DNA of 64,000 nt from Candidatus Ozemibacter sibiricus (lineage in GTDB: Bacteria; Muiribacteriota; Ozemobacteria; Ozemobacterales; Ozemobacteraceae), in contig QOQW01000008.1 in the NCBI GenBank assembly GCA_003327425.1, positions 1-64,000 on the forward strand. Reading direction: 5' to 3'. Shown piece by piece: positions 33,407 to 50,743 of this stretch. Position 1 is the first letter of the stretch. Each line of letters opens with the position of its first letter. The notes beneath the pieces are model-generated. The model was not told where the DNA came from and searched no databases. It saw only the letters and a list, made by a program, of their open reading frames with translations. Made by a program: the position numbers and the translations under genes.

Positions 33407-34750
33407 TTACTTGTTCTTCAGTTCGGCGATCAGGTGGCGGACGCTTTCTTGCGTGGCGCTGTCGAAGCCGCCTTCGGTGAAGACCCGAAAGTTCAGCTTG
33501 TTGATCAGGTGGGCGCTGACTTCACGGTTGTTCTCGTTGGCAGTGGAGACGTAGGCCATGAGGGAGCTGAGGTCGCCGTTCTCGACATCGCTCACCACGG
33601 TAGCGGCGGTGGTCTTCTTGTAGTAGTCCTGGACCATTTCGTCCCACAGGGTGTCTTTGGCGAAGGCCAGATCGTTGTAGGGCGCCGAGAAGCTGTAGCT
33701 GCTGGCCGGGAAGTAGATGGCCAGGCCCTTGGCGTTCTTGGTGCTGTAGCCGCTGAGGCCGTTGGCGATGATCAGCTTGGCGCTGGCGGCGAGCAGTTTG
33801 TCGCACGCGGTCTGGAAGCCGGCATCGTTGACGGTGACCTTCAGCAGTTCGACGAAGTGGGGAAGGTCGATGTTGGTGCGGTAGTAGAACTTCTGTACTT
33901 TGTTCAGAGCATCTTTGAACTGGGGACCATAGTTGCCGGCCATGGCGGCCTTGGCGAAGCCGTCGACGGCGTCTTTGAAGGCTGCATAGTTCTTCATCTC
34001 GAGGGCGGACTGGGTGCCGGAGGAGCTGCCCTGGGACCCGCCGTTGTAGGAAGCGGCATAGGCCTTGACGATGTGGGCGGCGAACTGGGCCGGGGTGGTG
34101 GTCCTGGTCAGGCCGCTCAGCACGCCGTCATAGGGCCAGCCGGCGCCCGGCTCGACTTCTTCGGAGGCCACGATGTAATCGACGCCGGGTATCGCGTGGG
34201 CGACTTCGGCCATCTGCATGAGGCAGGCATCGAAGGCGAAGATGTCGATATTCTTGCCGAGGGCGGCCTTGATCTGCTGACAGGCGATGGTCAGCTGGTT
34301 GGTGGTGATGTGGTTGCCGCTTTCGTCATCGTAGGAGATGCCCTTGATGATCGCGTCGTGGCCGTCCTTCCAGCCGGAGCCGTGGTTCCAGGCGATGACG
34401 GCATAGTGTTCGGCCGGGTAGGCGGCGGCGGTGCTCTTGACGAAATCGACCAGGACGTTGTAATCGCCCATGTCGATCTCGCCCATCTCCTTGAGGAGGG
34501 TGATCTTGCCCTTCTCGATGTAGTTGAGGGTGGCGGGACCTTTTTCGCGGTCGATGAGAACGACGATGTTGGCGAAATCGGAACTGCCGATCTTGGCCAT
34601 CTCGTTCATGTCTTCCACGCCATAGGGGTCGAGATTGTTGTCGGCGTTCAGGAAGACCATGAAGGTCCATTTTTTGGGGGCGGCGTCGACCGGGGCGACC
34701 GCGCAAGCGACGACAAAGAACAGGACGGCAATACTCACTACACGCTTCAT
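33407..34750 (-). CDS. Clostripain-family (C11) cysteine peptidase, secreted (copy 1)
   Basis: The 447-residue protein from the ATG at 34750 (AAGGAG 6 bases upstream) has a signal peptide (VVSIAVLFFVVACAVAPVDA). The C11 fold follows: WTFMVFLNADNNLDPYGVED, the catalytic histidine in AWNHGSGW (about residue 122) and the catalytic cysteine in AFDACLMQMAEVA (about 173), then ASEEVEPGAGWPYD. C11 enzymes cleave after arginine or lysine and usually self-process. It should act outside the cytoplasmic membrane. It is a close paralogue of the gene directly upstream, and both end with the same type of helical tail (NFRVFTEGGFD). It has its own consensus promoter with an operator-like palindrome. Confidence 0.88.
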   Translation of the reverse strand: MKRVVSIAVLFFVVACAVAPVDAAPKKWTFMVFLNADNNLDPYGVEDMNEMAKIGSSDFANIVVLIDREKGPATLNYIEKGKITLLKEMGEIDMGDYNVLVDFVKSTAAAYPAEHYAVIAWNHGSGWKDGHDAIIKGISYDDESGNHITTNQLTIACQQIKAALGKNIDIFAFDACLMQMAEVAHAIPGVDYIVASEEVEPGAGWPYDGVLSGLTRTTTPAQFAAHIVKAYAASYNGGSQGSSSGTQSALEMKNYAAFKDAVDGFAKAAMAGNYGPQFKDALNKVQKFYYRTNIDLPHFVELLKVTVNDAGFQTACDKLLAASAKLIIANGLSGYSTKNAKGLAIYFPASSYSFSAPYNDLAFAKDTLWDEMVQDYYKKTTAATVVSDVENGDLSSLMAYVSTANENNREVSAHLINKLNFRVFTEGGFDSATQESVRHLIAELKNK

Positions 34751-34790
34751 CTTATACTCCTTACTGACTTCTGAGCTTCTCGATACTCGC

Positions 34791-34806
34791 CTGACCAATC
34801 GGTCAG
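34791..34806. promoter_or_regulatory. Operator-like palindrome in the C11 copy 1 leader
   Basis: CTGACCAATCGGTCAG has 6-bp perfect arms around a 4-base centre. It begins about 8 bases downstream of the -10 box, at the expected transcription start, where a bound repressor would block initiation. The shape resembles TetR-family operators. Confidence 0.5.
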
Positions 34807-34814
34807 ATACGGCC

Positions 34815-34843
34815 ATTATAGGCAGCGACCACCCGGCTGTCAA
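34815..34843 (-). promoter_or_regulatory. Consensus promoter of C11 peptidase copy 1
   Basis: On the minus strand a perfect TTGACA (34843-34838), 17-base spacer and perfect TATAAT (34820-34815). This is the strongest promoter in the window by match to consensus. The leader to the ATG at 34750 is about 58 bases. Confidence 0.85.
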
Positions 34844-34911
34844 CCAGCCGGCGGAAGAAACCACCGCCAACCCCGCTCACCTTCTGATGAACAGGGGGCA
34901 GTGGTCGTCGT

Positions 34912-36306
34912 TCAACGGGAGGCGCGAGCGCCGGAGGGGCTGACCGAACCCTGGAGCTGAGCGAGCAGGGCGCGAACCTCTTCGACGAGGGAGGCGGGCA
35001 GGCCGCCTTCGCTGTACAGCCGGAAGTTCAGCTCCTGGATCACGAAGGCCGTGACGTCGGGGTTCTGTTCGGCGGCATTGGCCACGAACTTGCGCAGCTC
35101 GCTCAGATCGCCACTTTCGACGGAGGCCACCAGGGCGGCGGCAATGGACTTCTTGCCGAGGTCGAGGATCATTTCGTCCCACATGGTGGCCTTGGCGAAT
35201 TCAAGATTGGTGTAACCGGATTCGAGGTAGTAATCGTGCGGCAGGTAGATGGCCAGGCCCTTGGCATTGCGCAGGCCCGCCCCGTTGGAGCCGTTGGCGA
35301 TGATCGCCGTCTGGCAGGCCCCGATCAGCTTGCCACAGGCGGTCTGCATGCCGGTTTCGGTGATCGACCCCTTGAGGAGGGTCGCCAGGTGGATCAAGTC
35401 GACATTCTCGGGGTAGGCGAACCGTTGCACCTGCTGGAGGGCCTGGGCGAACTGGGCGTTGAACTTGCCGCCCATGGCCGCTTTGGCGAAGCCGTTGATG
35501 GCGTCGTAGACGCCCTCCATGGCGGCGACGTTGATGCCCGACTGGGTGCAGTCGTCGATGCCCTGGCTGCCGCCCGAGTAGGACGAGACGAAGGCCTTGA
35601 CCCACGCCTTGACGAACGTGTCGGTCTTGATGGTGGCGGTCAGGTGCTTGAAGACGTCGTCATAGGGAGTGCCTTTGCCCGGTTCGACTTCCTCGGAGGC
35701 CACGATATAATCGACGGAGCCGCGGCAGACGTAGACCACTTCGGCCATCTGCATCAGGCAGGCGTCGAAGTTCAGGATGTCGATGTTGTGGCCGAAGATG
35801 CCCTTGATCTCGCGCAGGGCTATTCCCAGCTGGGCGGTGGTGATGTGGTTGCCGCTCTGGTCATCGTAGCTGATGCCCCGGAACACCTTCTTGGCGGCGT
35901 TCTTCCAGCCGCTGCCGTGGTTCCAGATGCCGAGGATATACCGCTTGGCGGGGAAATCGCGCGCCACTAGGCGGGCGAACCCGATCAACTGGCGGTAGTC
36001 GCCCATGTCGAGCTCGCCCATGTCTTTCAGTTTCTTGATATTCCCCTTCTCGATGTAGTAGAGGGCGGCGGGGCCATTCTCGCGGTCCATCAGGACCACC
36101 ATGTTCAGCCAGTCGTTCGACCCGATGGCCGACATTTCCTTCATGTCTTCGATGCCGAAGGGGTCGAGGTTGTTGTCGCCGTTGAGGAAGACGGCGAGGG
36201 TCCATTCTTTGGGGGTGGGGGCCACCGCGGGCTCTTCGGCGAAGGAAGGCAGAACGATGGCGATGATCAGGAGCAGGGGGAGAGTGATACTGGCTACTCG
36301 CTTCAT
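34912..36306 (-). CDS. Clostripain-family (C11) cysteine peptidase, secreted (copy 2)
   Basis: The 464-residue protein from the ATG at 36306 (AAGGAG 8 bases upstream) has a signal peptide (RVASITLPLLLIIAIVLPSF) and the same domain as copy 1: WTLAVFLNGDNNLDPFGIED, catalytic histidine in IWNHGSGW (about 128), catalytic cysteine in NFDACLMQMAEVV (about 180) and ASEEVEPGKGTPYD. The in-frame ATG at 36369 would put 21 polar residues before the signal peptide and is rejected. The two copies lie head-to-tail with 160 bases between them and are highly similar along their whole length, so they arose by tandem duplication. Divergent from the Ig-like surface protein. Confidence 0.87.
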   Translation of the reverse strand: MKRVASITLPLLLIIAIVLPSFAEEPAVAPTPKEWTLAVFLNGDNNLDPFGIEDMKEMSAIGSNDWLNMVVLMDRENGPAALYYIEKGNIKKLKDMGELDMGDYRQLIGFARLVARDFPAKRYILGIWNHGSGWKNAAKKVFRGISYDDQSGNHITTAQLGIALREIKGIFGHNIDILNFDACLMQMAEVVYVCRGSVDYIVASEEVEPGKGTPYDDVFKHLTATIKTDTFVKAWVKAFVSSYSGGSQGIDDCTQSGINVAAMEGVYDAINGFAKAAMGGKFNAQFAQALQQVQRFAYPENVDLIHLATLLKGSITETGMQTACGKLIGACQTAIIANGSNGAGLRNAKGLAIYLPHDYYLESGYTNLEFAKATMWDEMILDLGKKSIAAALVASVESGDLSELRKFVANAAEQNPDVTAFVIQELNFRLYSEGGLPASLVEEVRALLAQLQGSVSPSGARASR

Positions 36307-36433
36307 GAGGGCGACTCCTTGTCTCCTTGTGCGCTTATGGCCCTCCGCAAAAGGAAGGGTTATTTTCATTTTACGGTTTCTTGGGGAAGAACGGAAGGTA
36401 CCTCTGCAAATTTTTTTGAATCTTGCGAGCGCG

Positions 36434-36700: not shown

Positions 36701-39049
36701 ATGAGCCGCCGCTGTGCCACCGGCCATCGTTCCGTCCGAATTCTGGGGCTGGCTCTCGGAGTGATCTTGCTGGCCAGCACGTTGCAAGCGGCCATCACCA
36801 ACCCCACGTGCACGATCACCACCCCGACCGATCTCGCCAAACGGTACAACAATGCCCAGACCGTCACCCTCGCCGCCTCCTGGCAAGGCGATACCCCGCC
36901 GTTCGCCGCCACCTTCAAAGCGGGCGGCGTCGCCATCGGCACCGCCAATACCAACGGCACCACCGCCAACTTCGCCATCTCCGCGTCGGGCCTGCCTGGC
37001 GAATCGGTGACCTTCTCCGTGTCCATCATCGAAACCGCCGTGGTCAATGCCCCGCCTTCTCCCGACACCCCCGCGCCCGGCACCTTGCTGCTCGATCGCA
37101 CCGCTCCCCGACTCGAGCTGCGGGTCACCTCAGGAGCGGTGGTCTCCCCGCAGACCGGCTTCAACACCGTCACCCTGGCCTTCACCTCTGATGAACCGCT
37201 CGCCGGCCCGCCCGTCTTCACCATCTCCCCGGGCAGCTGGGGCAATCCGACCCCCGCCAGCCCAGAGGCCCCGCCGTACTCGAGCAATCAATACACGATC
37301 ACGGTGCCGGCGGGAACGCCCGCCGGAGTCTATACCGTCCAGGTTCAGGGGTTCGACAACACCGAGCCGGCCTCGGGTCGGAACTCTTCGACCGCCCAGA
37401 CCGCCTTTCAGGTCGATGCCGGGGCCGATGGCGCCCCCGTCATTCTCTCCTGCTCGCCGCGATCCCCCTTCCGCACCGAGAGTCTGACGCTCTCCGGCTC
37501 GGTGCCGGCCGAATCGGGCGCCCAGCGGGTCGAGATCCTGGAAGGAGGCTCGGTGGTGGCCACGGTCAATGTTCCCGCCAACACCGACACCTGGACCGCC
37601 ACCATTTCAGGAATTGCGGAGGGGAACCACAGCTACACCGCCCGTCGTATCGACCCGCTTGGCAACACCTCCCCCTCCAGCGCAGAATTCCCCGTGGTCG
37701 CTGACCGCACTCCCCCTCATGAACCGGTGCTCGAGCCGTTGAAAAAGCCGGTCAATACCAAGCGGGTGACGGTGCGCGGGACCGCCGTCACCGATCCGCC
37801 CCACCACAGCGGCCCCCTCAAGGTGACCCTGTTCAGCGGCGCCACCCAGTTGGCGACCACCAACGCCAACGCCGATGGCACGTTCGCCTTCACCGATGTC
37901 GAGATGCCTTCGACCGGGCAGAACCAGCTCGTGGCCCGCGCCGCCGACACCACCTGGGACGGCACCGGCAGCAAAGGCAATGAAAGCCCCTATTCGAACC
38001 TGATCACCGTGATCGTTGACCAGGAAGCCCCCTACGTCGTCTCCGGCGGCATCTCGATCAGTCGCCCCGACACCGGTCCTCCCGTCCTGCGCTCGGTGGT
38101 CGGGCCGGGGCCGGCCGAGCCGGTTCGGGCGGTGCCACCGGTGGTGGCCAGGCCGCCGGAGTCGGTCCGGGCCATTCCGCCCGCTGGGAAGGGAACCCCC
38201 GGTGTCGGGGAATCCAGCAGTCCTGTTGGGGTCGGGTCCATCGAAGGCGCTTTCCCTGGCCCTGCCGCCGATGGAGCCGGTCCGGCGCCGGTGGCCCTCC
38301 TCGCCGGCGCCCCCGAAGGATTCGTGCCGCCGCCGGGCGGATGGTCGGCCGGGCTGGTCCCGGTGAGTCTGCCGTGCGCCCTGGTGCGCGACCGGTCGCC
38401 GGCCCGTGTGCGGTTCTGGGTGGCGTTCCGCAAGGCGGGGCAGCGGCGCGGTCTGATGTACCTGGTGCCGATGACCCTGAGCGGCGACCGCTTCACCGGG
38501 TTTCTGCCCAATGATCCCTTGCCGCTGTTCTACCGGTTCCGGCTGCTCGATGCGGCCGGGAACGAATCCTTCTTCCCCGCCGATGGCGAGTTCTGTCGGG
38601 GGGTGCAGCCCGCCGACACGCTGCGGTTGTTGCATCGGCCGCGGTGGTATGAGGCGGTGCCCGCCACCGACGAATGGCCGGTCGATGTGCTGGGCCTGCC
38701 GCCGCTGGCGCGCGTGCTGGCCTACCGCCGCCTTCTCGCCCCGGCCGATCTGGTGGAGCCGGTCAAGACCTGGCTGTCGACCTGGCCGGAAGCCGCTGGC
38801 ATCGAAGTCGTCGAGGCCGGCCCGACCGGCGAGGCGGCGGCTCGCGAGGCGCCCTGGCGGCGCGACCTCGAGCTGCTGGCCGAGGAGCGGCTGCCGGTCG
38901 AGCGCCTGGAGGTCCTGATTCCCGAAGTGGTGAACGGCGACGTGCCGCTCAGCGAGCTGCCCGATCCGGAGCGGTTGCCGTCGGGCCCCGCCTGGGAGAG
39001 GCTGCGCAATGCCATTCGATTCCGACAGCTGCACGCGCCAGCCCCCTGA
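36701..39049 (+). CDS. Secreted protein with Ig-like domains
   Basis: The 782-residue protein from the ATG at 36701 has an AAAGGAGGA Shine-Dalgarno sequence and an immediate signal peptide (RILGLALGVILLASTLQAA). An in-frame ATG at 36527, also with a good GGAGG, would add 58 polar residues in front of the signal peptide. Residues about 30-450 look like four or more bacterial Ig-like/beta-sandwich repeats (ending in segments such as DRTPPHEPVLEPL and VDQEAPYVV, with VTVRGTAV and TVTLAASW strands). Residues 460-560 are Pro/Gly-rich. A C-terminal beta domain (VRFWVAFRKAGQRRGLMYLV) and a helical tail follow. Probably an adhesin or surface structural protein. Its last 101 bases overlap the thiamine diphosphokinase gene on the other strand. 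Confidence 0.75.
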   Translation: MSRRCATGHRSVRILGLALGVILLASTLQAAITNPTCTITTPTDLAKRYNNAQTVTLAASWQGDTPPFAATFKAGGVAIGTANTNGTTANFAISASGLPGESVTFSVSIIETAVVNAPPSPDTPAPGTLLLDRTAPRLELRVTSGAVVSPQTGFNTVTLAFTSDEPLAGPPVFTISPGSWGNPTPASPEAPPYSSNQYTITVPAGTPAGVYTVQVQGFDNTEPASGRNSSTAQTAFQVDAGADGAPVILSCSPRSPFRTESLTLSGSVPAESGAQRVEILEGGSVVATVNVPANTDTWTATISGIAEGNHSYTARRIDPLGNTSPSSAEFPVVADRTPPHEPVLEPLKKPVNTKRVTVRGTAVTDPPHHSGPLKVTLFSGATQLATTNANADGTFAFTDVEMPSTGQNQLVARAADTTWDGTGSKGNESPYSNLITVIVDQEAPYVVSGGISISRPDTGPPVLRSVVGPGPAEPVRAVPPVVARPPESVRAIPPAGKGTPGVGESSSPVGVGSIEGAFPGPAADGAGPAPVALLAGAPEGFVPPPGGWSAGLVPVSLPCALVRDRSPARVRFWVAFRKAGQRRGLMYLVPMTLSGDRFTGFLPNDPLPLFYRFRLLDAAGNESFFPADGEFCRGVQPADTLRLLHRPRWYEAVPATDEWPVDVLGLPPLARVLAYRRLLAPADLVEPVKTWLSTWPEAAGIEVVEAGPTGEAAAREAPWRRDLELLAEERLPVERLEVLIPEVVNGDVPLSELPDPERLPSGPAWERLRNAIRFRQLHAPAP

Positions 39050-39725
39050 CCAGCCAGACCAGGCAACCCTCGGTCACGGCGAGATCCCAGGTGGGGGCGG
39101 TGGTGACGTTGCTGATGCCGCGGGCCTCGCCCCGCGCCAGGGTGGCCCCGGTCAGCGGCCAGCGCACGCCGGTCGAGTCGAGGCCGCGGCAGTCGTCGAG
39201 GGCCAGCAGCGCCACCGGCGTGCCGACCGGCAGGGTCAGGCGCAGGCGGCCCGGCCCGAGCACGCCGCCGCAGCCGAGGCCCGGCTCGTCGGCGTCGGCC
39301 GTCGAGGCGGTGCCGGTGTCGAAGGTGAACAGCCCCCGATCAGTGAAGTGGCGCAGAACCAGCAGGTTCATCAGCGCGTGGTCGAGCCTTCCCCCCCAGA
39401 ACCCGCACAGATGCACCATCGCCGAGGCATCGACCGGCAGGGCGGCGAGGGCCAGCTCGAAGTCGGTCTGATCCTTGTCGGCGGGAAACCGTCGGATGGT
39501 CGCGCCGGCCGCTCGATGGAAGGCGAGGGCGGCGGGCGAGATGGAATCGAGATCGCCGATCACCAGCCGCGCTGGTTGGCCGAGTCGCATCAGCAGATCG
39601 CCCCCCGAGTCGACCGCGATGACATCGTGCCAGGGCAGCGGCGGCAGCGGCGTCGCGGCCGCGACCCCGCCCAGGGCGACCAGCACGTGCGCAGAAGGGG
39701 CGGGAAGGGGCGTCAGGTGGTCCAT
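38949..39725 (-). CDS. Thiamine diphosphokinase
   Basis: The enzyme converts thiamine plus ATP into thiamine diphosphate. The 258-residue product has the family motifs AVDSGGDLL, VIGDLDSISP, FPADKDQTDFELALAAL and GFWGGRLDHALMNLLVL, then RGISNVTT near the C-terminal domain boundary. The start at 39725 has AGGAGG with 5 bases spacing; the adjacent GTG at 39728 is less well placed. The last 30 or so residues (after GCLVWLVRGL) extend past the normal end of the family and correspond to the 101-base overlap with the convergent Ig-like gene. No other thiamine gene is near. Confidence 0.85.
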   Translation of the reverse strand: MDHLTPLPAPSAHVLVALGGVAAATPLPPLPWHDVIAVDSGGDLLMRLGQPARLVIGDLDSISPAALAFHRAAGATIRRFPADKDQTDFELALAALPVDASAMVHLCGFWGGRLDHALMNLLVLRHFTDRGLFTFDTGTASTADADEPGLGCGGVLGPGRLRLTLPVGTPVALLALDDCRGLDSTGVRWPLTGATLARGEARGISNVTTAPTWDLAVTEGCLVWLVRGLARAAVGIEWHCAASPRRGPTATAPDRAAR

Positions 39726-39785
39726 CACATCCTCCTGGGGTGGCAGGGGCAGGGGGAAAGCAGGCTGGCGGGGGCGATGATCGAG

Positions 39786-39814
39786 TTGCCTGGCCGGCGA
39801 GGCTTGGGTATAGT
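39786..39814 (+). promoter_or_regulatory. Promoter of the GNAT gene (leaderless)
   Basis: TTGCCT (39786-39791), 17-base spacer and TATAGT (39809-39814), with a GTG start 6 bases further on at 39821. Confidence 0.6.
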
Positions 39815-39820
39815 GACGGC

Positions 39821-40294
39821 GTGGGTGCGCATCGAATCGTTCCTGCCCGGCCTGGCGACGCGGCGGCTCTGCGTCAGCTCGAACTCGACTGTTTCACGGC
39901 GGTGGATGTCTTTTCCGTGCGACAGTTCCGGCGGCTGCTGGCCTCTCCCACCTGCCGCATCCTGGTGGTGCGGGGGGCAGGCGGAACCCTCGTGGCCGAG
40001 ATCGTCGGGTTGTTGCGCCATTTTAGCATACCGTCGGGCCGCATCTACAAGGTGGCGGTCCATCCGTCGGCGCAAGGCCAGGGGCTCGGTCGTCGGCTCA
40101 TCGCCGCGATGGAAGCCGAGTTCCGTCGAGCCGGGATGGTGGCGGCCGTGGCCGAGGTGCGCGTCAGCAACACCGGTTCGCGGGCCCTGTTCGAGGCCTG
40201 CGGCTATCAGGCCGGCGAACGTCTCCCTCGCTACTACGCCGACGGCGAAGATGGCGTGAAATACCGCAAAGTGCTCGCCTCCCGCCCTTCCTGA
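39821..40294 (+). CDS. GNAT-family N-acetyltransferase (RimI-like)
   Basis: The 157-residue protein has the full GNAT fold. IVPARPGDAAALRQLELDCF is the entry strand and helix, IYKVAVHPSAQGQGLGRRLI is the acetyl-CoA-binding motif A (Q-x-x-G-x-G/A), and VRVSNTGSRALFEACGY is motif B. Spacing and size match RimI, which acetylates the N-terminus of ribosomal protein S18, but the target could be another protein or small molecule. The GTG at 39821 is chosen because a -10 box ends 6 bases before it and the homology begins right after. Longer starts back to 39740 would lie upstream of the promoter. Confidence 0.82.
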   Translation: MGAHRIVPARPGDAAALRQLELDCFTAVDVFSVRQFRRLLASPTCRILVVRGAGGTLVAEIVGLLRHFSIPSGRIYKVAVHPSAQGQGLGRRLIAAMEAEFRRAGMVAAVAEVRVSNTGSRALFEACGYQAGERLPRYYADGEDGVKYRKVLASRPS

Positions 40295-40410
40295 CCAGGC
40301 TGGGAACGTCGCGTCCTGCTTCGTGTCTTGTTCGTTTGGCGCGTGCCACCGGCATGGGAACAAGGTCGCCAGGACCACGGCCGCGCGGCGGGGGGCCGTG
40401 CCGCAGGGCA

Positions 40411-43400
40411 TCAGTCCTCGCGCAGCAGGAAGGCCTGGATCTCACGGGTCTTGCCGCGCACCGCCCGGAAGGGCAGCGGCTCGGCGGGATAGCCGGGCCC
40501 GGCCAGGGCCAGGGTCTCGGCGGCGATCACCACCTGGGTGCCGCCGGTGGTCTGGGCCAGGCAGGCCAGCCGAGAGGCGAGGTTGACCGGGTCGCCGATC
40601 ACGGTCTGATCGAGCCGGATCCGCCCGGCCCCGATGATGCCGGCCACCACCGGGCCGGAGTTGATCCCGGCGGCCAGGGACAGATCGAGGCCCTGCTGTC
40701 GCCAGACCTGGCGGGCCCGGGCGACGACGGCGAGCGCCTGGCGGGCGGCGCCGGCCGCCCCCCCCGGCCCGTCATGGCGGAAGACCAGCATGATCTTGTC
40801 GCCGATGACCTTGTCGATGTCCCCACCGATCTCATGCACGGCGGCGCTGATGATATCGAGGTGGGCGGCCAGCAGGGCGAAGACCTCGCCGGGATCGTGG
40901 GCCGCCTGATAGGCGTCGAACCCCGCCAGACTCGAGAAGGCCACGGTGACGTCGGTCCGCTGCCCGGTGCTGGCCTGCAGGTCGTAGTGGGTGCCGGCGA
41001 CCGCCTCCCGCACCGAGCGCGACACGAAGCGGCGCAGGATCGAGCCTTCCTCGAGGCCGCGGGCCATCTGGTTGAAGGCGCGGGCCAGGCTGCCGAACTC
41101 GTCATCGCGGGGCAACGAGAGGCGGACGGTGAAATCCTGCGCCTGGATGCGGCGGACCGCGTCGAACAGGGCGGCCAGCGGGCGCTGGAAGGACCAGCCG
41201 GCGAAGATGGCCAGCCCGATGGCCAGTCCCAGCGCGGCGGCCAGCCAGATCCTGGCCTGGCGGAGCAGGGCGGCCCGTTCGCCTTCCAGGAAGGCGGTGT
41301 CCTGCCTGCCGCCCAGGACGGCGTTCAACGACCGCCCGGGCAGGGTTTCCAGCACCGGGTGGCCGGGGTCGGCCGGGTCGACCAGGCGGGCATCGATGCG
41401 GGTGAAATACGAGCTGCGGCTCATTTCGGCGAGGGTCGGCTGGGCGGCGGCCAGGCTGTCCCACGTGCCGAGGATGGGGGTCATCTGGGTCCGGTAGCCG
41501 TCGAAGACCATCAGGAAGCGACCTTCCCGGCGTCGCTCCTCCTCGGTGGCGCGCTCGGCCAGGCGTCGTTTCAAGAATTCCCGATCGACGTACTTGCGGT
41601 TCCAGAACCAGCTGGTCAGCAGGTACGGCCGGCCGGCCCGGGTGGTCAGCGTTTCGAGCGCCAGGCTGGAGACGTAGTTGAAACGGAGTTCGAACAGGCG
41701 ATGGGGCTGGTAGATGAGATTGAGGTAGGGTTCGGGGCCGGCCAGATGGAGCAGGACATCGGTCACCAGGTCTTCCTGGACGCCGGTCATCAATTCCTTC
41801 CCGGGCGGTTCGGCCCCGGCCGCGCCGTCGGCGACCATCAGTCCCCAGCGCTTGAACTGGTCGCGGGCCCGTCGCACCAGACGCCGGGTCAGGGGATCGG
41901 TCGAGGCGGCCCGGGTCACCCGGCTGTCGACATTTCTGAACTGCAGCACCGTGCCGTCGGTGCCGACGCCGAGGAAATTGTAGAATTGCAGGCAGTTTCG
42001 ATCGACCAGGCGCTGGAAGGCGACCTGCAGGCAGGTGGCCGGCGACGCGAGCGAGGCGTCCTGGCCGGCGATGGTCGCCAGCCGTTCGAGAGGGGTCAGC
42101 GACTTGAGGAAGTGGGTATAGGAGGCCATATTGAACCGGCCATCCTCGTCGAGACCGACCAGATCGTCATGCAAGGCATGGGCCGCCTGTTGCCGCCGGG
42201 CCGCGATCTCCTCATCGATCGAGGAGGCGAGGAGATGGTCGAGGAGGGAAAGCGGCAGCAGCGCCGCGCACAAGAAGCCTCCCCAGAGCACGGTGGAGAC
42301 GCCGAGAGCGGGCCCGCGGCCGAACACCGCTTGCTCGACGGTCAGGAAGATGCCGGCCAGCATGGCCAGGGCGAGGCCCGCCATCCAGGCCGCCTGGCCG
42401 AGAGGCAACGGGCCGGGGCTCGGCAGCGGCATCACCAGGAACCCGCGGTAGGCCGAGCCGGGGGGCGCGGGGCAGGCACCGATCAACCACTCGCCCCAGC
42501 GTCGGGCTGCGAAGCGGGTGCCGTAGAGGAAGGGGCGGAACCGGCCGGCCGCGGCGCGAGACCTCGGCGGCGGTGCCTGGCTGGCCCGCTCGGCCCGCCA
42601 GATGCGCCATTCCTGGACCTGCTGGCAGAACAGGCGTCGCAGGTCGGGATGGGCCCGGATCACGGGGCTGAGCTGCAGCCGGTCGGAACCAGAGGGGAGC
42701 AGCGCGAGGCCGGATGAGCGATCGGTCCAGGAGGCGGCCAGCAGATCGGCCAGCAGCCTGCCAGGGGGCCGATCGAGGTCGAACACGCAGAGAATGAGCC
42801 AGCGACGTCGGACGGTTTTCCAGAGGAATCCGCGCTGGCGGCCGCCCGGACGCCGGAAGATCTGCAGACACCCTTCGCGCTGGCCTTGAATGCCCAGGGG
42901 CAGAGGCAGATCGTAGGTCGCCGCCACCCGCTCACGGAACCGCTGGGTGTCCTCGACCGGCGAATGCGCTTTGATGTTGCTCAGGAACCGGGCGATCTCG
43001 TACAACAGCCGCGTCGACCGCCGACCGCCGCGGGGGCCGGACATTTCCAGCCTGGCCGGGGGCGCTGGCGGGGAAGCCGATCCTGGCCCCGCGCCTGGTC
43101 TGACGACGCCAGGATGGGCCCCGGCGGCCCGGCGCCGGTCGCCGCATGCCCGGAACACCAGCGATGGCGCGGTAGCGCAGGCGAAGATCTGCACCTCATG
43201 AGGCGGCAGCCCGCGTGCCAGCACCTGCCGATACCACGCCCGGACGGCGGGCAGATCGGGGGTGCCGGTGCCGAGCCGCTGCCCCAGCCGGTCGAAGACG
43301 AGATTGACCTGGGCTTCGAGGTTGAGGGAAGCGCGCACCCGGTCGGTCTGCCAGGCCAGTTGCCGGCGGGTTTCCGCTTCCAGGGCGGCCGCCTGGCGGA

Positions 43401-43488
43401 GTCTGGCTTCCCGACCGCTCCACAGCAGCGTCATGCCCGGCACCAGGATGAATACCAGGGGCAGAGCCAGGCGAGCGGCTTGTCTCAT
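40411..43488 (-). CDS. Dual-sensor HAMP class III cyclase, C2-like (first metal Asp missing)
   Basis: The 1025-residue membrane protein begins at an ATG overlapping the stop of the upstream cyclase (ATGA). Layout: membrane helix (about 5-22), sensor, helix pair near 345-405, second sensor, helix near 720, HAMP and a C-terminal class III cyclase domain (about 840-1015). In the motif F-x-D-I-x-G-F the metal-binding aspartate is replaced: the sequence is AFSSLAGFDAY with Ser853. The other catalytic residues are present: Lys893 and Asp897 in DIDKVIGDKIM, Thr962, Asn969 and Arg973 in TVIGDPVNLASRL. The lysine/threonine pair is that of class IIIb adenylyl cyclases. Alone it should bind ATP but lack normal two-metal catalysis. 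Together with its neighbour it could form one full active site. Confidence 0.88.
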   Translation of the reverse strand: MRQAARLALPLVFILVPGMTLLWSGREARLRQAAALEAETRRQLAWQTDRVRASLNLEAQVNLVFDRLGQRLGTGTPDLPAVRAWYRQVLARGLPPHEVQIFACATAPSLVFRACGDRRRAAGAHPGVVRPGAGPGSASPPAPPARLEMSGPRGGRRSTRLLYEIARFLSNIKAHSPVEDTQRFRERVAATYDLPLPLGIQGQREGCLQIFRRPGGRQRGFLWKTVRRRWLILCVFDLDRPPGRLLADLLAASWTDRSSGLALLPSGSDRLQLSPVIRAHPDLRRLFCQQVQEWRIWRAERASQAPPPRSRAAAGRFRPFLYGTRFAARRWGEWLIGACPAPPGSAYRGFLVMPLPSPGPLPLGQAAWMAGLALAMLAGIFLTVEQAVFGRGPALGVSTVLWGGFLCAALLPLSLLDHLLASSIDEEIAARRQQAAHALHDDLVGLDEDGRFNMASYTHFLKSLTPLERLATIAGQDASLASPATCLQVAFQRLVDRNCLQFYNFLGVGTDGTVLQFRNVDSRVTRAASTDPLTRRLVRRARDQFKRWGLMVADGAAGAEPPGKELMTGVQEDLVTDVLLHLAGPEPYLNLIYQPHRLFELRFNYVSSLALETLTTRAGRPYLLTSWFWNRKYVDREFLKRRLAERATEEERRREGRFLMVFDGYRTQMTPILGTWDSLAAAQPTLAEMSRSSYFTRIDARLVDPADPGHPVLETLPGRSLNAVLGGRQDTAFLEGERAALLRQARIWLAAALGLAIGLAIFAGWSFQRPLAALFDAVRRIQAQDFTVRLSLPRDDEFGSLARAFNQMARGLEEGSILRRFVSRSVREAVAGTHYDLQASTGQRTDVTVAFSSLAGFDAYQAAHDPGEVFALLAAHLDIISAAVHEIGGDIDKVIGDKIMLVFRHDGPGGAAGAARQALAVVARARQVWRQQGLDLSLAAGINSGPVVAGIIGAGRIRLDQTVIGDPVNLASRLACLAQTTGGTQVVIAAETLALAGPGYPAEPLPFRAVRGKTREIQAFLLRED

Positions 43489-46400
43489 GCGGGGCCCTCC
43501 CGGACGGCCACGACTTCCCAGGCCCGCTGGCGCCCGGGGATCTCGGCCCAGACGAAGGCGTCGGCGAGCATCTGATGGACGGCCTCGCCCACCACCACGC
43601 GCGTGTGGGATCCGGTCCGCGACAGGCCCTCCAGCCGCTCGGCCTCGTGGCGGCCCGGCCCCAGAACGGCGAATTCGGCCCGTTCGCGGCCGCGCATGAC
43701 GCCGACCAGGAACTGGCCGGCCGCCACCCCGACCCCGATCTCGTAGAGGAACAGCCCCTGCTGGCGGCGCTGCCGCTGCAACGCCTGGTGGGCCGCGCGC
43801 ATGGTCAACGCGGCCGCCAGGGCGCGGCGAGCCGCTCCCGCCGCCTCGCCCGGGAAGAACGCCACGATGGCATCGCCGATGAATTGGTCGATCCTGCCCC
43901 CCTGGTGTTCGATGGCCAGGCCCATCTCGTCGAAATGGGCGTTCAGCATCCGCACCACATCTTCGGGCTGTTCCCGCTCCGACAGGGTCGTGAAGCCGCG
44001 GATGTCGGAAACCAGAAGGGCGCCCGTCACCAGGCGCGGCTCTTCCAGGTCGCCGGCGCCCGGCTCCTGCAGCACGCGTTCGAGCGAACCGGGGACGAAC
44101 CGGCCGAGGTTCCGCCGCTCCTGCAATCCCTCCACCATGGTGTCGACCGCGCGCGTCAGCTCGCCGAGGGCATCGGCCCGCGGCAAGGCCACCCGCACCG
44201 TCAGATCGCCCGCCGTCACCCGCTGCAGACCACGTTCGACGGCCAGCAACGGATCGATGAGAAATTGCGAGACCTGGCGCCCCAGCAGGGTCACCAGCAC
44301 CAGGACCACCACCGAGAAGCCGACCAGCCCGGCCTTGTTCCGCCAGGCCCGGTTCAGGATGTCGTCCACCCTGATCTGGAGACCGACGACGAACGGCAGG
44401 AAGCGGGCGCACATCCCCGTCACCAGCAGGCGATCCCCCTGGCGGACCAGGCGGCCGGTTCCGGTATAGGCGGTTTCATGCAGCAGGCGCGCCAGGTGGC
44501 GGGCCTGCGGGTCGCTCCAGATCGGCGACCCGGGTGGGGGGAAGACCAGCTCGCAGCCGCCGGCTCGGAACCGCCCGAGGTAGCAGGTGCGCGCCGGATC
44601 GAGGGCGGCCTGGGCGAGATGTCGGAAGAAGAACGCGCGGAAGGCCATTTCGGTCGGCATCTGCAGCATCAGATAGGCCCGCGTCGAGCTGCCGGCCGTG
44701 AACTGGTGCGAGATCTGGAACACGGCCTGCTCGCGGCCCGCCTTGCCGAATTCGCCAGCCTCTTCGATGTCGAGGAACAGGTTGCGGGAGTCGGAAGCGC
44801 CCATCGCCGCATAGACCGTCAACCACCATTCCTGGCTCCGTTCGAGGAGCGGGGGAGGGAGGGGATGGTCGATGGGCTGCAAGGACTGGTGGGCCAGATA
44901 GATCATCGGCGCGAAGATGTCCAATTGCGGCCGATTGGACAGGCCGGCCACGTTGGTCGGCGGCCAGACCAGCCCCGGCTCGCCCGGCCGGAACAGGAAG
45001 GCGGTGGTCGATCCCAACCCCTCGCGCTGCAGAGCGGATAACAGGGCCCGGGCGGCCGGCGGCAGGGCCGTCGGCCGGGGATCGTAGATCCAGCGCAGGA
45101 CATCGGGCCGCTGGACCACCGCTTGCGAGGCGCGCGCCAGGGCCGAGAGCACCTGGCTGCTGCGGGAATCGAGGCTGGCGATCCAGTTCTGGGCCTCGCG
45201 GCCGGTGCGTTGGATGTCCCGCTCGGCGCCCGTATCGAAGTGGATCCAGCCCAGGCCCAGCAGCCCGGCGACCGGCAGCGCGCCGAGCAGGAACAGGATG
45301 ACCGGGAAGGCGACCCGCAAGGGGACCGCATGGTCGGAGCGAAACAGGACGCCGATCGCCGCGATGCCCCACCCCAGACCGAACAAGGCCAGCAGCAGGA
45401 GCTGGCGGGGCCGGGCCGAGGCCACCAGCGCGCCTTCCCGGGAAACGACCCAGGCGGTGTACGGTTCATCGTACGAGAAAAAGCCCTTCATCACCCACCG
45501 GCCTGCCAGATCCCAGGTCTTTTCCGCCGTCAGGTCCGGTCGGGCCCGATCGATCCGCTGCAGGAACCGGACCGTCTGGCGGGCTTCGGCGCGCGGGGCG
45601 GAACGGGCCCAGCGCGGGCCGACCGCCGGCTGGCCTCGCCGGTTGGCCGGTTCTCGTGCGTCTGGCCCTTTTCCCCCCCTCGGCGATGGGGAAGGCCGAA
45701 GAGCGGCGGCTGGGATGGAGGTCGCACCGACCTGAGGAACGGGCAGCAACACCGGCAGGAGCCGGCCGCGCGTGGCGCGGCGCACACCTTCGAGGCAATG
45801 CTCGAGCGGGCGGGCCTGCTGTTCGATGGCGCCGGGGAAGATCAGGAACACTCCGCCCACGGGCTGCCCCTGGACGGTGATGACGTCCCAGAACAGGAAG
45901 GCGCGTCGGCCCTCCGCGTCGATCGGGGTCAATCGGCCCCGTCGATGCACGGCCAGCAGGTGGGCTTCGGCATCGGAACCGAACGCACCCTTGGTCAGGC
46001 GATTGATCCGCCCGGCCTGGGCGGGGGGAAAGGCCCCCTGGCGAGAGGCCTCAGTGAACGCGCGGAACAGGTCGGTCAGCAGCCGGCCCCCCTTGCTGGC
46101 CAGGCCGGGCCCCCGCACCAGGGCGGCGGTTCCGTCCGGGGCGAGGCGGAAGACATACATCTGGCTGCCGGGGGGGCGGTGCGTGGCCGGAAAGCTGCGG
46201 TGCCAGGCGCGTGGCGCGGCGCGAGCCAGCCGGCGGTCGGGGTTGCCGGCCTTGGCCGCGGTCATGGCCCGCTCCAGGCGGGCGATCAGGCCGGCGCCCA
46301 TGACGTCGATCTGCGCTTCGATCGTATGGGTGGTGCGCAACCGGGCCAGGGCGGCCCGCGCTTCCTGTTCCCAGGCGAAGCGGGCCTGCTGCCGCCGGAA

Positions 46401-46502
46401 GGCCTCCTGCCAGGAGAGGCCGGTCCAGGCGATGGCCAGCAGGGCGGTCGACAGGAGGAACGGCAGCAGGTAGGGAGACAGACGGCGGGTGATCGACGGC
46501 AT
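43485..46502 (-). CDS. Dual-sensor HAMP class III cyclase, C1-like (Lys, Thr and Asn missing)
   Basis: The 1005-residue protein (ATG at 46502; a TATACT box lies further upstream) has the same layout as its neighbour: membrane helix, sensor of about 280 residues, helix pair near 305-360, second sensor, helix, HAMP and cyclase domain. Both metal-binding aspartates are present: Asp833 in VSDIRGFTTLSE and Asp877 in DQFIGDAIVAFF. The residues that normally bind adenine and stabilise the transition state are changed: Gln873 for Lys, Ala945 for Thr/Asp and His952 for Asn (AVLGPGRHEAERLE). Arg956 remains. On its own it is expected to be inactive or very weak. The pattern is that of the C1 half of mammalian adenylyl cyclases. 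Confidence 0.88.
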   Translation of the reverse strand: MPSITRRLSPYLLPFLLSTALLAIAWTGLSWQEAFRRQQARFAWEQEARAALARLRTTHTIEAQIDVMGAGLIARLERAMTAAKAGNPDRRLARAAPRAWHRSFPATHRPPGSQMYVFRLAPDGTAALVRGPGLASKGGRLLTDLFRAFTEASRQGAFPPAQAGRINRLTKGAFGSDAEAHLLAVHRRGRLTPIDAEGRRAFLFWDVITVQGQPVGGVFLIFPGAIEQQARPLEHCLEGVRRATRGRLLPVLLPVPQVGATSIPAAALRPSPSPRGGKGPDAREPANRRGQPAVGPRWARSAPRAEARQTVRFLQRIDRARPDLTAEKTWDLAGRWVMKGFFSYDEPYTAWVVSREGALVASARPRQLLLLALFGLGWGIAAIGVLFRSDHAVPLRVAFPVILFLLGALPVAGLLGLGWIHFDTGAERDIQRTGREAQNWIASLDSRSSQVLSALARASQAVVQRPDVLRWIYDPRPTALPPAARALLSALQREGLGSTTAFLFRPGEPGLVWPPTNVAGLSNRPQLDIFAPMIYLAHQSLQPIDHPLPPPLLERSQEWWLTVYAAMGASDSRNLFLDIEEAGEFGKAGREQAVFQISHQFTAGSSTRAYLMLQMPTEMAFRAFFFRHLAQAALDPARTCYLGRFRAGGCELVFPPPGSPIWSDPQARHLARLLHETAYTGTGRLVRQGDRLLVTGMCARFLPFVVGLQIRVDDILNRAWRNKAGLVGFSVVVLVLVTLLGRQVSQFLIDPLLAVERGLQRVTAGDLTVRVALPRADALGELTRAVDTMVEGLQERRNLGRFVPGSLERVLQEPGAGDLEEPRLVTGALLVSDIRGFTTLSEREQPEDVVRMLNAHFDEMGLAIEHQGGRIDQFIGDAIVAFFPGEAAGAARRALAAALTMRAAHQALQRQRRQQGLFLYEIGVGVAAGQFLVGVMRGRERAEFAVLGPGRHEAERLEGLSRTGSHTRVVVGEAVHQMLADAFVWAEIPGRQRAWEVVAVREGPA

Positions 46503-47137
46503 GGTGGGGGCGGCTCGGCGGGAGCGTGCGCTGGGAAGTATACCCGGAAAAGCCCGATTTCTCATCTGGCGAACTCCCTTCCAGCCAGCCGTCCTCTGCG
46601 TTCTGGGGCTGGTTTCCCACGGTGGGTGCGCCGGACTCCCCCTCTCCGAATGCGCACGGCCTCATCCGCTCTTGGCGGCCGATGTCACGGGGGCTCCGCG
46701 AGGGACGGCAGCGGTCGCGTGTCTCGGTTCCTTCCAGCCATGGCGGGGCAGCCGGTGCGAGCGAGCCCGGCTCGCGGGGGGGGAGCGCGGCCCACGCGCC
46801 GGGTCGCCCGACCCCTTCCCGACCCTCTGACGAGCCTGGCCAATCAACCCACTCTCGCCCACAAGATGGGAATCACCGTTTTTCTTTCTCGGGCAGACGG
46901 CGATAGGGAAGGGGCCGGCACGGCAGGAATGCCCCTGTCCTATGGCTGGAGACATCGCCAGAGGTCGCCGGCCTTCCCTTCCTTGCAACGGGCCAGACGC
47001 GACGCGGGCGGCCGGCGGGGCGACCGCTTCGCCGGCTGCCGGATCGAGGCACCTGGCAGACATCGCGGGCATTGGTGCCAGAATCTCCGTCTGATGGTAG
47101 GATGGGAGCGACCACCCTCGGAGAGGAGAGGCAAGGC
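46503..47137. other. Intergenic region between divergent units
   Basis: About 630 bases between the cyclase operon and the DUF2339 gene. Open frames on both strands are typical of GC-rich non-coding sequence (Arg, Pro, Gly, Ser) with no ribosome binding site or recognisable product. A TATACT box on the minus strand near 46535-46540 may be the cyclase promoter. Confidence 0.45.
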
Positions 47138-50100
47138 ATGCCCGAGATTCTGTTCGGTCTTTTCCTGGTGTTCGTGGTGCTGCCGTTGTGGTTCATCATT
47201 CATACATTGACCCGATTGTCGTCGCTGCGACGCTCCCTCGAGGAGGTCGGGCAGAGCCTCGGCGCCCAGCTCTCCGCGGTGCGCCGGGAACTGGCTCTCT
47301 CCCGGCAGCGATATCGGCGGCTGCGCCGCCGCACCCGCCGGTTGGCCCGCCACCTGGGGCTGCTGCCGCGGCCGGAAGGCCGGCCCTCGGAGGCCTCCCC
47401 CCCTCCCCCGTCTGCCTCTGCATCCCGGCGAGAACGCCCTGCCGCCCGGTCCGCCCGCCGCCCGCCGACGGGAGCTCCGCCCCGTCCCGTGCCGGCGGCG
47501 CGGCCGATCCCGCCTCTGCCCCCCGTCGCCCCACCCGCCCCATCTGCCCCACCTGTCCCGGCGACCGCCGCTTCCCCGCTTCCCTCGGCTCCGCTTCCTT
47601 CGCTCGCCCCTGAGGGGGGCGAGCCTGCCGCCGCTCCGGCGACGGTGGGGGCGCCAGAACCCTCGCCGCCCTCAGCCCCGCCCGTCCCGTCCTCGCCCGC
47701 TGTCGACGGCGGCTCGCCCCTTTCGGCGGCCGAGCCGTCGCCTCCTCCCTCGGCGGTCGCGGCCCCGCCGCCCTCGCCTCCGCCCCTGCCGGTCCCTCCC
47801 GTGCCGCGGCCGCCCTCTCGTCCCCGAGCCGCCCACCGGGCTCGACTCGATCCCGAAACCATGGCGGCGACCCTCGAAAACCCGGTCAGCATCGAACCGC
47901 TGCCTGGCGAAGAGGCTTCCGCCGCGGCGATCGGCACGCTCGATGGCCGCCCGCCAGGGTTTGGTCGCCGGCCGCCGCCCGACGAACCGCCCCCGGCTGG
48001 TTCATCCTGGTTCGAGCAGCTCCGGGCCAGCCTGTCGGGTGAGGAATGGGAGGCCGTGGTCGGCGGCAGCTGGCTGAACAAGCTGGGCGCGCTGATCCTG
48101 GTCATCGGCCTGGCCCTCTTCCTCAACTATTCGTATGGCCACCTGGGGCCGGCCGGGCGCGTGGCGACCGGGTATGCGGTCGGGCTGGCCCTGCTGGGAG
48201 CCGGTCTCTGGCTCGAACGCCAGGAACGCTACCAGATCTTCACGCTAGGCCTGAAGGGCGGCGGCTGGGCGGCCCTCTACTACACCAGCTACGCCGTGCA
48301 TGCCATCGACGCCTCTCGTCTGATCGAGAGCCCGGCCCTCGGCATGCTGCTGCTGGTCGGCGTGGCGGCCGCCATGATCGCCCACGCGCTGCAGTACCGT
48401 TCGGAACCGATGGCCTGTCTGGCCTATTTCATCGGCTATGCCACCCTGGTCATCAGTCCGCGCTCCGATTATTCGCTGCTGGCCTCGCTGCCGTTGCTGG
48501 CCTCGCTGCTGATCGCCTCCTACCGCCGGGAATGGGATCAGACGCCGTTGCTCGGCTTGATCCTCAGTTATGCCTGCTATGCGCTCGGCTATGGCGATGT
48601 CTTCTGGCGTCCGCCCCTGCCCGGCGCCCTGGTCAGCGGGAAGGCGATCCTCGTCGTCCACTGGCTGGCGTTCGAGGCGTTCGACCTGCTCGAGGTCGCC
48701 CGCGGGCGCCGCTCCACCGGCGCCGCGCGCGCCATCTTCCCCGTCAACGCGGTCGGCTTCATTGGCGTGGCCCTGCTGCATGCCCCCTCGGGCGACCCCT
48801 ATGCTCTGCCGCACTTCCTGGCGATGACCGGCGCCGGCTACCTCGTCAGCACGCTCATTCGGGCCTGGCTGCGGCCGCCCGCCGGGTTCGCGCCCGCCAC
48901 TCCCATCCTCGAACGAGCCCTGGCCGGCAGCTACGAGGGGGCGGTGAGCCTGACCACCGGGTTGCTGGCGGTGGCCCTGTGGTTGCGGTTCACCGGCTTC
49001 CGATTGATCGCCGGGTTCCTGCTGCTGGCCGAGATGCTGTTCGTCACCGGCCGCCAGACCCGGCAGTCCTTCCTGCGCTGGCTGGGCCTGCTGGTCTACG
49101 AGCTGGGCGCCCTCTACGGTTTCCATCTGATGGTGACGGTCGAAGCTGCCCGCGAGCTGTTCGGCCTGACCATGAAAGCCTGGACCCCGGGCCTGGGGCT
49201 GCTGATCGCCGTCGGCTACCTCGATGCCCTGCTGCTGCCGGGCGAGCCGGCCGAGGAGTTCGACGGCCAATCCCGAGCCGGATTCAGCGTGGCCGCGACG
49301 CTCCTGGCCGTGCTCTGTCTGGCTTCCAACCTCCGCGGGCAGCTCCATGGCGTCGCCTGGCTGGCCCTGGCGTTGATCCTGCTCGAAGTGGCCCGCCGCA
49401 CCACCCGGCCCGAGTTCGCCTGGCAGGCCTATGGGGTCGGGGCCCTGGCCGCCGGCACCATGGTCGTCCAGAACCTGGCCCGCGATGCCGGGCCCGCCGC
49501 CTGGGAACCCTGGGTCGCGCTGGGCGGGCCGGTGCTGCTGACCGGCTTCACCGCCTGGCGCCTGCGGTTCGGTCAGAGCGGGAACCTTCCGCTGGACCAC
49601 GTGCCGCCGGTTTCCGACCTCAGCGCCGATGTCGCCGTGGGCGCCCTGCTCGGCCTGCTGTGGCATCTGCTGCCGCCGGGCCTGGTCGCGCTCGGGTGGG
49701 GGGTGGTCGCCGTCGTGGCGGGCGAGATCGGGTACGGGTGGGGCTGGCCGCGCCTGCGGCGGCACCTGCAGGTTGTCCTGGCGCTGACCTTCGGACGGGC
49801 GGTGATGGCCAACTTCACCCTGCTCGGCGACACCGCCGGGCTCTCGCATCGCGTGCTGACCGTCGTGCCGCTGCTGGCCCTGTTCATCTACGAATGGCTG
49901 CGGGGCGCCGAAGAAGCCTCCGCTTCCGCTTCCGGCTCCGGCGACGGCGACGACGGGGCGCCGCTGGCTGGCGAGCCGTCTTCCGCGAGCGAGGCGACCG
50001 GCCAGCCGCTCCCCGCGACGTTCCGGCCGGGCGGCATGACCCTCGCCGAACGGGACTGGCAGTGGTGGTGGCTGTATCCGCCGACCATCATGGCGGCCAT

Positions 50101-50743
50101 GCTCTTCCGGTTCGAATTCGGCCGGGTGGGCATGGTGACCGGCTGGGCCCTGCTGACGGTCGGGCTGGTGGCGGTGGGCCGCCGGGCCCGTCTGGGCCAC
50201 CTGCGAGCCCAGAGCTACCTGCTGGCCGTGATGACCTTCCTGCGCTGCTGGGGCACCGATTTCCTGCCGCCGTCCGCCCTTCCCGGCGCGTTCGATCCCA
50301 ACCGGGTCGATCGCCTGCTGGCTGGAATCGCCGTCGTGCTGGCCTTCTTCATCGCCCAGTTCCAGTTGCCCCGCCGGGAAGACCCTGCCGACGATGGTCA
50401 GCTCTACCCGTTCGATCGGCAGTTCCGCTCGGCGTTCTGCGTGATGGGGGCGCTGATCCTGACCAAGCTGATCTACCACGAAGTGTCGGGCCACGCCCTG
50501 TCGATCGCCTGGGGCTGCGAAGCCGCCCTCCTGCTGGCGGCCGGGTTCGCTTTGCGCGATCGGCCTCTCCGCCTGAGCGGGTTGTTCCTGCTCTTCTTCT
50601 GCGTGCTCAAATTGCTGGTCTATGACTTCGCCAACCTCGAGGGCGCCTGGCGGTATCTCTCCTTCTGCCTGGTCGGCGCGCTGGTGATGGGCATTTCCTG
50701 GGCCTACTCGCGGTTCCGCGACAAGCTCCGGGAATATTTCTGA
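47138..50743 (+). CDS. DUF2339 multi-pass membrane protein
   Basis: The 1201-residue protein begins with one membrane helix (EILFGLFLVFVVLPLWFII), a short coiled coil (about 25-75) and about 170 residues rich in Pro, Ala and Ser. From about residue 300 there are more than twenty predicted membrane helices of the DUF2339 family, opening with the family hallmark GGSWLNKLGALILVIGLALF and containing ALYYTSYAVHAIDA. The function of DUF2339 proteins is unknown; they are large and found in many envelope-rich bacteria. The start at 47138 is preferred over upstream in-frame ATGs because it directly precedes the first helix. The M48 protease gene starts 20 bases after its stop and is probably co-transcribed. 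Confidence 0.85.
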   Translation: MPEILFGLFLVFVVLPLWFIIHTLTRLSSLRRSLEEVGQSLGAQLSAVRRELALSRQRYRRLRRRTRRLARHLGLLPRPEGRPSEASPPPPSASASRRERPAARSARRPPTGAPPRPVPAARPIPPLPPVAPPAPSAPPVPATAASPLPSAPLPSLAPEGGEPAAAPATVGAPEPSPPSAPPVPSSPAVDGGSPLSAAEPSPPPSAVAAPPPSPPPLPVPPVPRPPSRPRAAHRARLDPETMAATLENPVSIEPLPGEEASAAAIGTLDGRPPGFGRRPPPDEPPPAGSSWFEQLRASLSGEEWEAVVGGSWLNKLGALILVIGLALFLNYSYGHLGPAGRVATGYAVGLALLGAGLWLERQERYQIFTLGLKGGGWAALYYTSYAVHAIDASRLIESPALGMLLLVGVAAAMIAHALQYRSEPMACLAYFIGYATLVISPRSDYSLLASLPLLASLLIASYRREWDQTPLLGLILSYACYALGYGDVFWRPPLPGALVSGKAILVVHWLAFEAFDLLEVARGRRSTGAARAIFPVNAVGFIGVALLHAPSGDPYALPHFLAMTGAGYLVSTLIRAWLRPPAGFAPATPILERALAGSYEGAVSLTTGLLAVALWLRFTGFRLIAGFLLLAEMLFVTGRQTRQSFLRWLGLLVYELGALYGFHLMVTVEAARELFGLTMKAWTPGLGLLIAVGYLDALLLPGEPAEEFDGQSRAGFSVAATLLAVLCLASNLRGQLHGVAWLALALILLEVARRTTRPEFAWQAYGVGALAAGTMVVQNLARDAGPAAWEPWVALGGPVLLTGFTAWRLRFGQSGNLPLDHVPPVSDLSADVAVGALLGLLWHLLPPGLVALGWGVVAVVAGEIGYGWGWPRLRRHLQVVLALTFGRAVMANFTLLGDTAGLSHRVLTVVPLLALFIYEWLRGAEEASASASGSGDGDDGAPLAGEPSSASEATGQPLPATFRPGGMTLAERDWQWWWLYPPTIMAAMLFRFEFGRVGMVTGWALLTVGLVAVGRRARLGHLRAQSYLLAVMTFLRCWGTDFLPPSALPGAFDPNRVDRLLAGIAVVLAFFIAQFQLPRREDPADDGQLYPFDRQFRSAFCVMGALILTKLIYHEVSGHALSIAWGCEAALLLAAGFALRDRPLRLSGLFLLFFCVLKLLVYDFANLEGAWRYLSFCLVGALVMGISWAYSRFRDKLREYF

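Follow-up and report, generated by a model that had tools for sequence, protein, structure and literature searches.

Complementary active-site halves suggest C1/C2-like heterodimeric class III adenylyl cyclases in Candidatus Riflebacteria

Two adjacent genes in the window, the 64-kb stretch of DNA analysed here, very probably encode two halves, one C1-like (A) and one C2-like (B), of a class III membrane adenylyl cyclase that works as a heterodimer. The initial annotation had proposed a C1/C2-like heterodimer for this pair, and the relatives support this reading: the catalytic domains of A and B are complementary in 67 of 67 sets, 22 of which are encoded as one polypeptide. The product is probably cAMP, since the Lys-Thr pair in B suggests ATP as the substrate.

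The gene pair and its catalytic residues

Both genes lie on the minus strand where they had been placed before, with the start of B inside the stop codon of A (Table 1). The end of A at 43485 was confirmed, while its start may be at 46565 rather than at the annotated 46502, as a Shine-Dalgarno-like GAAGGGAG is found 8 nt upstream of the ATG at 46565. The residue numbers of A used here would then increase by 21. A small ORF at 39725-40411 was considered as a third gene of the operon and rejected; it has no Pfam match and its composition points to a spurious frame. Beyond B, the gene that probably follows encodes a thiamin pyrophosphokinase.

Table 1. Features of the A/B gene pair in the 64-kb window
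Feature	Position	Strand	Remarks
Gene A, C1-like half	43485..46565	minus	start 46502 gives 1,005 aa; alternative start 46565 gives 1,026 aa
Gene B, C2-like half	40411..43488	minus	1,025 aa
ATGA overlap	43485..43488	minus	B start inside A stop
A extracytoplasmic segment 1, TM1-TM2	45402..46412	minus	no known family by Pfam; bounds from hydropathy
A extracytoplasmic segment 2, TM3-TM4	44337..45257	minus	possibly dCACHE-like; hydropathy; fold search with a low-confidence model from a relative
A HAMP domain	44118..44264	minus	profile match
A cyclase domain	43563..44018	minus	Asp833, Asp877 and Arg956 kept; Gln873, Ala945 and His952 in Lys, Thr and Asn columns
B extracytoplasmic segment 1, TM1-TM2	42394..43422	minus	hydropathy
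B extracytoplasmic segment 2, TM3-TM4	41251..42249	minus	possibly dCACHE-like; hydropathy; low-confidence model and fold search
B HAMP domain	41047..41199	minus	profile match
B cyclase domain	40438..40959	minus	Ser853 for first metal Asp, rest kept; class III fold

The combination of HAMP and cyclase domains that the initial annotation had described is found in the C-terminal parts of both A (HAMP E-value 4e-7, Guanylate_cyc 44.4 bits) and B (8e-12 and 62.7 bits). As both exceed the curated Guanylate_cyc (PF00211) cut-off of 21.9 bits, they belong to the class III nucleotide cyclases. A full-length structure prediction of B is confident only over the HAMP and cyclase domains, and its best matches among solved structures are CyaB (3r5g, target TM-score 0.77) and CyaC (1wc1).

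The active site of class III cyclases is formed between two domains, one of which contributes the metal ligands and the other Lys, Thr, Asn and Arg. Residue columns were set by aligning A and B with solved cyclases and with 53 domains from the host genome, which confirmed the losses reported earlier for both proteins. A keeps both metal residues and Arg956; its Lys, Thr and Asn positions are taken by Gln873, Ala945 and His952. In B, Ser853 replaces the first metal residue, and the second (Asp897) is kept, as are Lys893, Thr962, Asn969 and Arg973. Neither chain thus contains all catalytic residues of a homodimeric cyclase; the residues are distributed as in the C1/C2 type, with the metal Asp pair in A and Lys, the base residue, Asn and Arg in B. 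The Thr at the base-selecting position, together with Lys893, corresponds to class IIIb. Rv0386 is active with Gln in the Lys position, so this replacement alone is not decisive.

In the proposed mechanism, the catalytic domains of A and B would pair head to tail. The live site would bind two metals on Asp833 and Asp877 of A, and B would provide Lys893 and Thr962 for the base and Asn969 and Arg973 for the transition state. The second site, formed by the metal side of B and the acceptor side of A, would be dead. An A-A dimer would lack the acceptor residues and a B-B dimer the metal site, leaving A-B as the combination with one complete site.

Conservation of the split in the host genome and in relatives

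Named matches and coinciding match lists place the host in Candidatus Riflebacteria, with the MAG AS27yjCOA_28 (locus L068) as a congener. A PF00211 search of its 5.68-Mb genome returned 53 cyclase matches, and a local profile scan of genome regions identified 55 class III cyclase domains. Of these, 34 form 17 adjacent A/B sets on the same strand, including the pair in the window, which rules out an oddity local to this operon. In all 17 sets, A has both metal Asp residues and has lost acceptor residues, and B is without the first metal Asp but retains Lys, Thr, Asn and Arg. Seven of the host sets are single open frames, with A preceding B. Outside the sets, 19 of the 21 domains have complete sites, the two degenerate ones being located at C29:88420 and C23:55852. 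Incomplete sites are therefore found in 34 of 34 paired and 2 of 21 unpaired domains (Fisher p = 7e-13). Other than further cyclases, no neighbouring genes are common to the sets.

Relatives were searched for with a 5-row alignment of B, and the regions from further genomes were selected by gene adjacency and not by residues. Loci (L) are taken to belong to particular genomes (G) where their match coordinates are identical. The main analysis covered 63 sets (26 A-B separate, 22 A-B fused, 15 B-A separate), to which three sets from G023 and one from G026 were added; these four are complementary as well. Altogether, the pair and both residue patterns, whose conservation in related genomes the initial annotation had left to be checked, were recovered without exception in 67 sets from 14 genomes, three families and both gene orders. 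Assignment to the B class required Lys, Asn and Arg, and every adjacent partner in the sampled sets passed. Among the 80 best matches retained out of 434 confirmed, homologues from other phyla occur singly, and almost every one has a complete site.

Within the 63 sets, both metal Asp residues are present in every A (63/63 each). A has lost Asn, Arg or both, frequently along with Lys and Thr; Asn remains in 4, Arg in 8 and Lys in 29 sets. B has Lys, Asn and Arg in all 63 sets and Thr in 62, with Ser in the remaining one. The first metal Asp occurs in only a single B (L147), where the second is Glu. A scan of all 153 well-filled alignment columns for positions conserved in B and not in A returned, in order of strength, Arg, Asn, the Val preceding Asn, Thr and Lys. 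The positions conserved in A and not in B are mainly residues of the metal loop, namely the first Asp together with Glu, Thr and Arg of DIRxFTxxxE, and also the second Asp. The Glu, Thr and Arg of this loop played no part in the classification of the domains.

These counts bear on the question of whether the working enzyme could instead be an A homodimer that functions despite its non-canonical residues, with B as a pseudocyclase that merely regulates it. Single losses in A are no proof of inactivity, since Ma1120 lacks the transition-state Asn and is nonetheless active (PMC4215837), and the retention of both metal Asp residues in every A fits such a homodimer. A homodimers, above all those that have lost Arg alone (e.g. 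L012 and L168), might keep some activity. However, the argument rests on the systematic pattern: in the A of the window, Arg is the one acceptor residue left of four, most other A domains lack Asn and Arg, and a pure regulator would need neither the unfailing conservation of exactly Lys, Thr, Asn and Arg nor fusion to A. We consider this explanation very unlikely.

Since each domain by itself looks defective, both proteins could also be dead receptors, paired via HAMP and the cyclase-like domains, whose output is nucleotide binding or contact with other proteins. Yet the residues kept are exactly the complement of one catalytic site, and metal ligands and transition-state residues would not be expected to last over 63 sets in such receptors, which makes this scenario highly improbable. 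A C1/C2-like heterodimer is more consistent with these patterns.

The large number of cyclases in the genome and its two degenerate unpaired domains could suggest random, independent decay of duplicated cyclases under relaxed selection. The same side is, however, never lost twice within a set; no A lacks the metal Asp residues, and B always has Lys, Asn and Arg. The initial annotation had reasoned that relatives carrying the missing residues would point to decay; the relatives do not carry them, and the complementary split persists in each of the remaining 66 sets. The contrast between paired and unpaired host domains and the complementarity of 67 of 67 sets indicate that the split is not due to chance, and the latter refutes random decay, to which we assign almost no probability.

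Evolutionary history, fusions and membrane topology

A maximum-likelihood tree was computed for 181 domains after removing six key active-site columns. The 63 A and 63 B domains fall on separate branches, and 54 complete domains group together. The SH-aLRT supports are 93 for the B branch, 95 for the complete set and 10 for the A branch, whose base is thus weak. This separation contradicts pair-by-pair decay and implies that one ancestral duplication explains the 63 sets. A and B are also co-inherited: their distances correlate with r = 0.76, against 0.14 at most in 2,000 permutations, and with r = 0.68 inside the host genome (0 of 5,000 permutations).

A number of complete singletons branch just outside A and B. 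These are L176-L179, which share the four-TM layout, and L049, L050, L053 and L055, in which it is alike as far as the stretch analysed extends. Such complete singletons of the same architecture are expected of a homodimeric ancestor. In family f6, an adjacent B-A pair (L196) with the residue patterns KDKTNR and DDKSSR consists of sister domains (support 97) placed among complete cyclases. This pair is, by residues and tree position, a second, independent origin of the split, which again disagrees with random decay. A homodimeric 4TM-HAMP cyclase would have been duplicated, its active site split between the copies, and the resulting pair multiplied as a unit, with several lineages later joining the A and B halves into one chain. 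The tree requires three changes for fusion and two for gene order.

The pair in the window is encoded by two overlapping genes and not as one polypeptide. In 22 related sets, a single open frame of about 2,000-2,400 aa encodes both halves in the order 4TM-HAMP-A-4TM-HAMP-B. Here, the unit is repeated via a variable linker, which is rich in Pro, Ala and Ser in high-GC genomes. In the fused relative L063, more than 1,200 aa separate the two sites. The coupling of translation by overlap that had been proposed for the window appears to be general, as the upstream stop is overlapped by a start codon in 34 of 41 two-gene sets, based on predicted starts and taking the nearest downstream one.

Both arrangements are relevant to a variant in which the heterodimers are real and the A and B proteins of the 17 sets mix freely, forming a combinatorial network. 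The conserved catalytic faces and the many sets within one genome would allow this. Gene overlaps and fusions, on the other hand, favour pairing in cis, as do the correlated distances within the genome, though shared ancestry alone could produce the latter. Overall, free mixing seems unlikely.

By hydropathy, the TM helices of almost all halves, A and B alike and whether fused or separate, lie near positions -780, -450, -420 and -95 with respect to the cyclase domain. This gives each half four such helices and a pair of extracytoplasmic segments, each about 300 residues long, and the pair in the window likewise has four TM helices and a HAMP domain per half and not two 6-TM membrane domains. 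Searches of Pfam and NCBIfam assigned no family to the sensor segments, and Pfam gave no match in 32 members. For segment 2 of a relative, the top Foldseek matches of a low-confidence model (pLDDT 64) were dCACHE domains of chemoreceptors and kinases, with E-values of 3e-5 to 1e-3 and TM-scores of only 0.2-0.4. A dCACHE-like segment 2 in A and B is thus suggestive only. The two segments of each half would feed its HAMP domain, and the ligand states of two receptors would set the geometry of one site. The previously suggested integration of up to four inputs agrees with this topology. From the sequences, we infer that A and B assemble, catalyse cAMP formation and integrate two inputs.

Comparison with known cyclases and significance

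The closest parallel is provided by the mammalian cyclases ADCY1-9, in which one half likewise carries both metal Asp residues and the other Lys, Asn and Arg. They have one live and one dead site, as is predicted here from sequence, and their TM1-C1-TM2-C2 plan is the order seen in the fused bacterial relatives. In contrast to the six TM helices and helical domain of ADCY1-9, each bacterial half has four TM helices, large extracytoplasmic domains and HAMP. The base residue is Thr (class IIIb-like) instead of Asp, and the halves are mostly encoded by two genes, with many sets per genome. Judging from their lineage, the bacterial sets would be of separate origin from the mammalian enzymes.

CyaB of Pseudomonas, CyaC of Spirulina and Rv1625c/Cya share the catalytic fold of A and B. 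Unlike A and B, each of their chains has the full residue set, and the homodimers form two equal sites. HAMP domains also occur in some bacterial adenylyl cyclases such as Rv3645 (PMC4821796). Soluble guanylyl cyclase alpha/beta and the chytrid NeoR/RGC likewise combine two different sensor-cyclase chains in a heterodimer; they are eukaryotic, have other sensors and no fused form. The Rv1625c mutants D300A and R376A, each inactive alone, complement each other when co-expressed (Guo 2001, as described in PMC4821796), so that two individually inactive halves yield an active heterodimer, an activity that is predicted for A/B. The mutant pair is artificial, in contrast to the natural and conserved split of A and B.

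Bacterial class III cyclases are described as homodimers (PMC4821796, PMC9552081), and the contrast between bacterial homodimers and eukaryotic pseudoheterodimers has been called 'a fundamental difference' (PMC4821796). According to a 2022 review, which asks what its advantage might be, the fused dimeric class III form is unknown in bacteria (PMC9552081). No prior report of a bacterial class III heterodimer or of Riflebacteria cyclases was found in the literature searched, subscription papers and preprints aside.

Independently of eukaryotes and on two or more occasions, Riflebacteria have likely evolved C1/C2-type heterodimeric membrane cyclases, including single-chain TM-C1-TM-C2 forms. A genome would thereby have up to 17 or more parallel two-receptor channels, in each of which the cyclic-nucleotide signal would be set by the joint state of two different receptors. 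The 14 cNMP-binding domains encoded in the host genome are possible targets. The A/B sets go a long way to explain why these Riflebacteria genomes hold so many cyclases. One phylum, in which the split arose two or more times, holds every stage, from complete singletons of the homodimer type through two-gene sets that would act as heterodimers to single-chain fusions. The transition from a homodimeric to a C1/C2 enzyme and its regulatory benefit become testable in bacterial proteins.

Arrays and surroundings of A/B sets

The A/B sets, which are adjacent or fused cyclases with complementary active sites, lie next to each other in arrays of two or three at loci L017, L143, L154, L159, L172 and L152, and genome G030 carries three in a row. 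These arrays suggest recent tandem multiplication of the whole A/B unit. Neither gene flanking the window pair recurs as a neighbour common to other A/B sets. Two clostripain-family peptidase genes also lie side by side in the window.

Features by position
Feature	Position	Strand	Remark
Thiamin pyrophosphokinase gene	window 38949-39728	-	flank downstream of A/B pair
DUF2339 membrane protein gene	window 47072-50743	+	divergent flank upstream of A/B pair
Clostripain-family (C11) peptidase genes	window 33407-36369	-	
HAMP-cyclase	L028:5524-7884 (G000:C29)		no partner
Soluble cyclase-like ORF	L026:6787-7377 (G000:C23)		196 aa, degenerate, shortly downstream of complete cyclase
sAC-like bacterial protein	L174:1301-2494 (G027:C52)		

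An independent complementary pair and other cyclases

The complementary pair at L196 (G026:C238) belongs to another Riflebacteria family; its members are sisters (43% identical), and it is a second, independent origin of such a pair. The sAC-like protein, which resembles mammalian soluble AC, has two cyclase domains in direct tandem, followed by an AAA-type ATPase region. With key active-site columns of DDKLRA in the first domain and ?QKTNR in the second, these domains are apparently also complementary. In the single cyclases L067, L080 and L081 of other phyla, His replaces the transition-state Arg.

Unpaired domains and cyclase inventory of the host genome

The unpaired HAMP-cyclase of the host genome has the key columns GEKTRH, and its cyclase domain is probably non-catalytic. 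A long C-terminal region following this domain reads like HEAT-type repeats. The whole genome encodes 55 class III cyclase domains compared to 14 cNMP-binding domains, meaning that inputs are many whereas obvious effectors are few.
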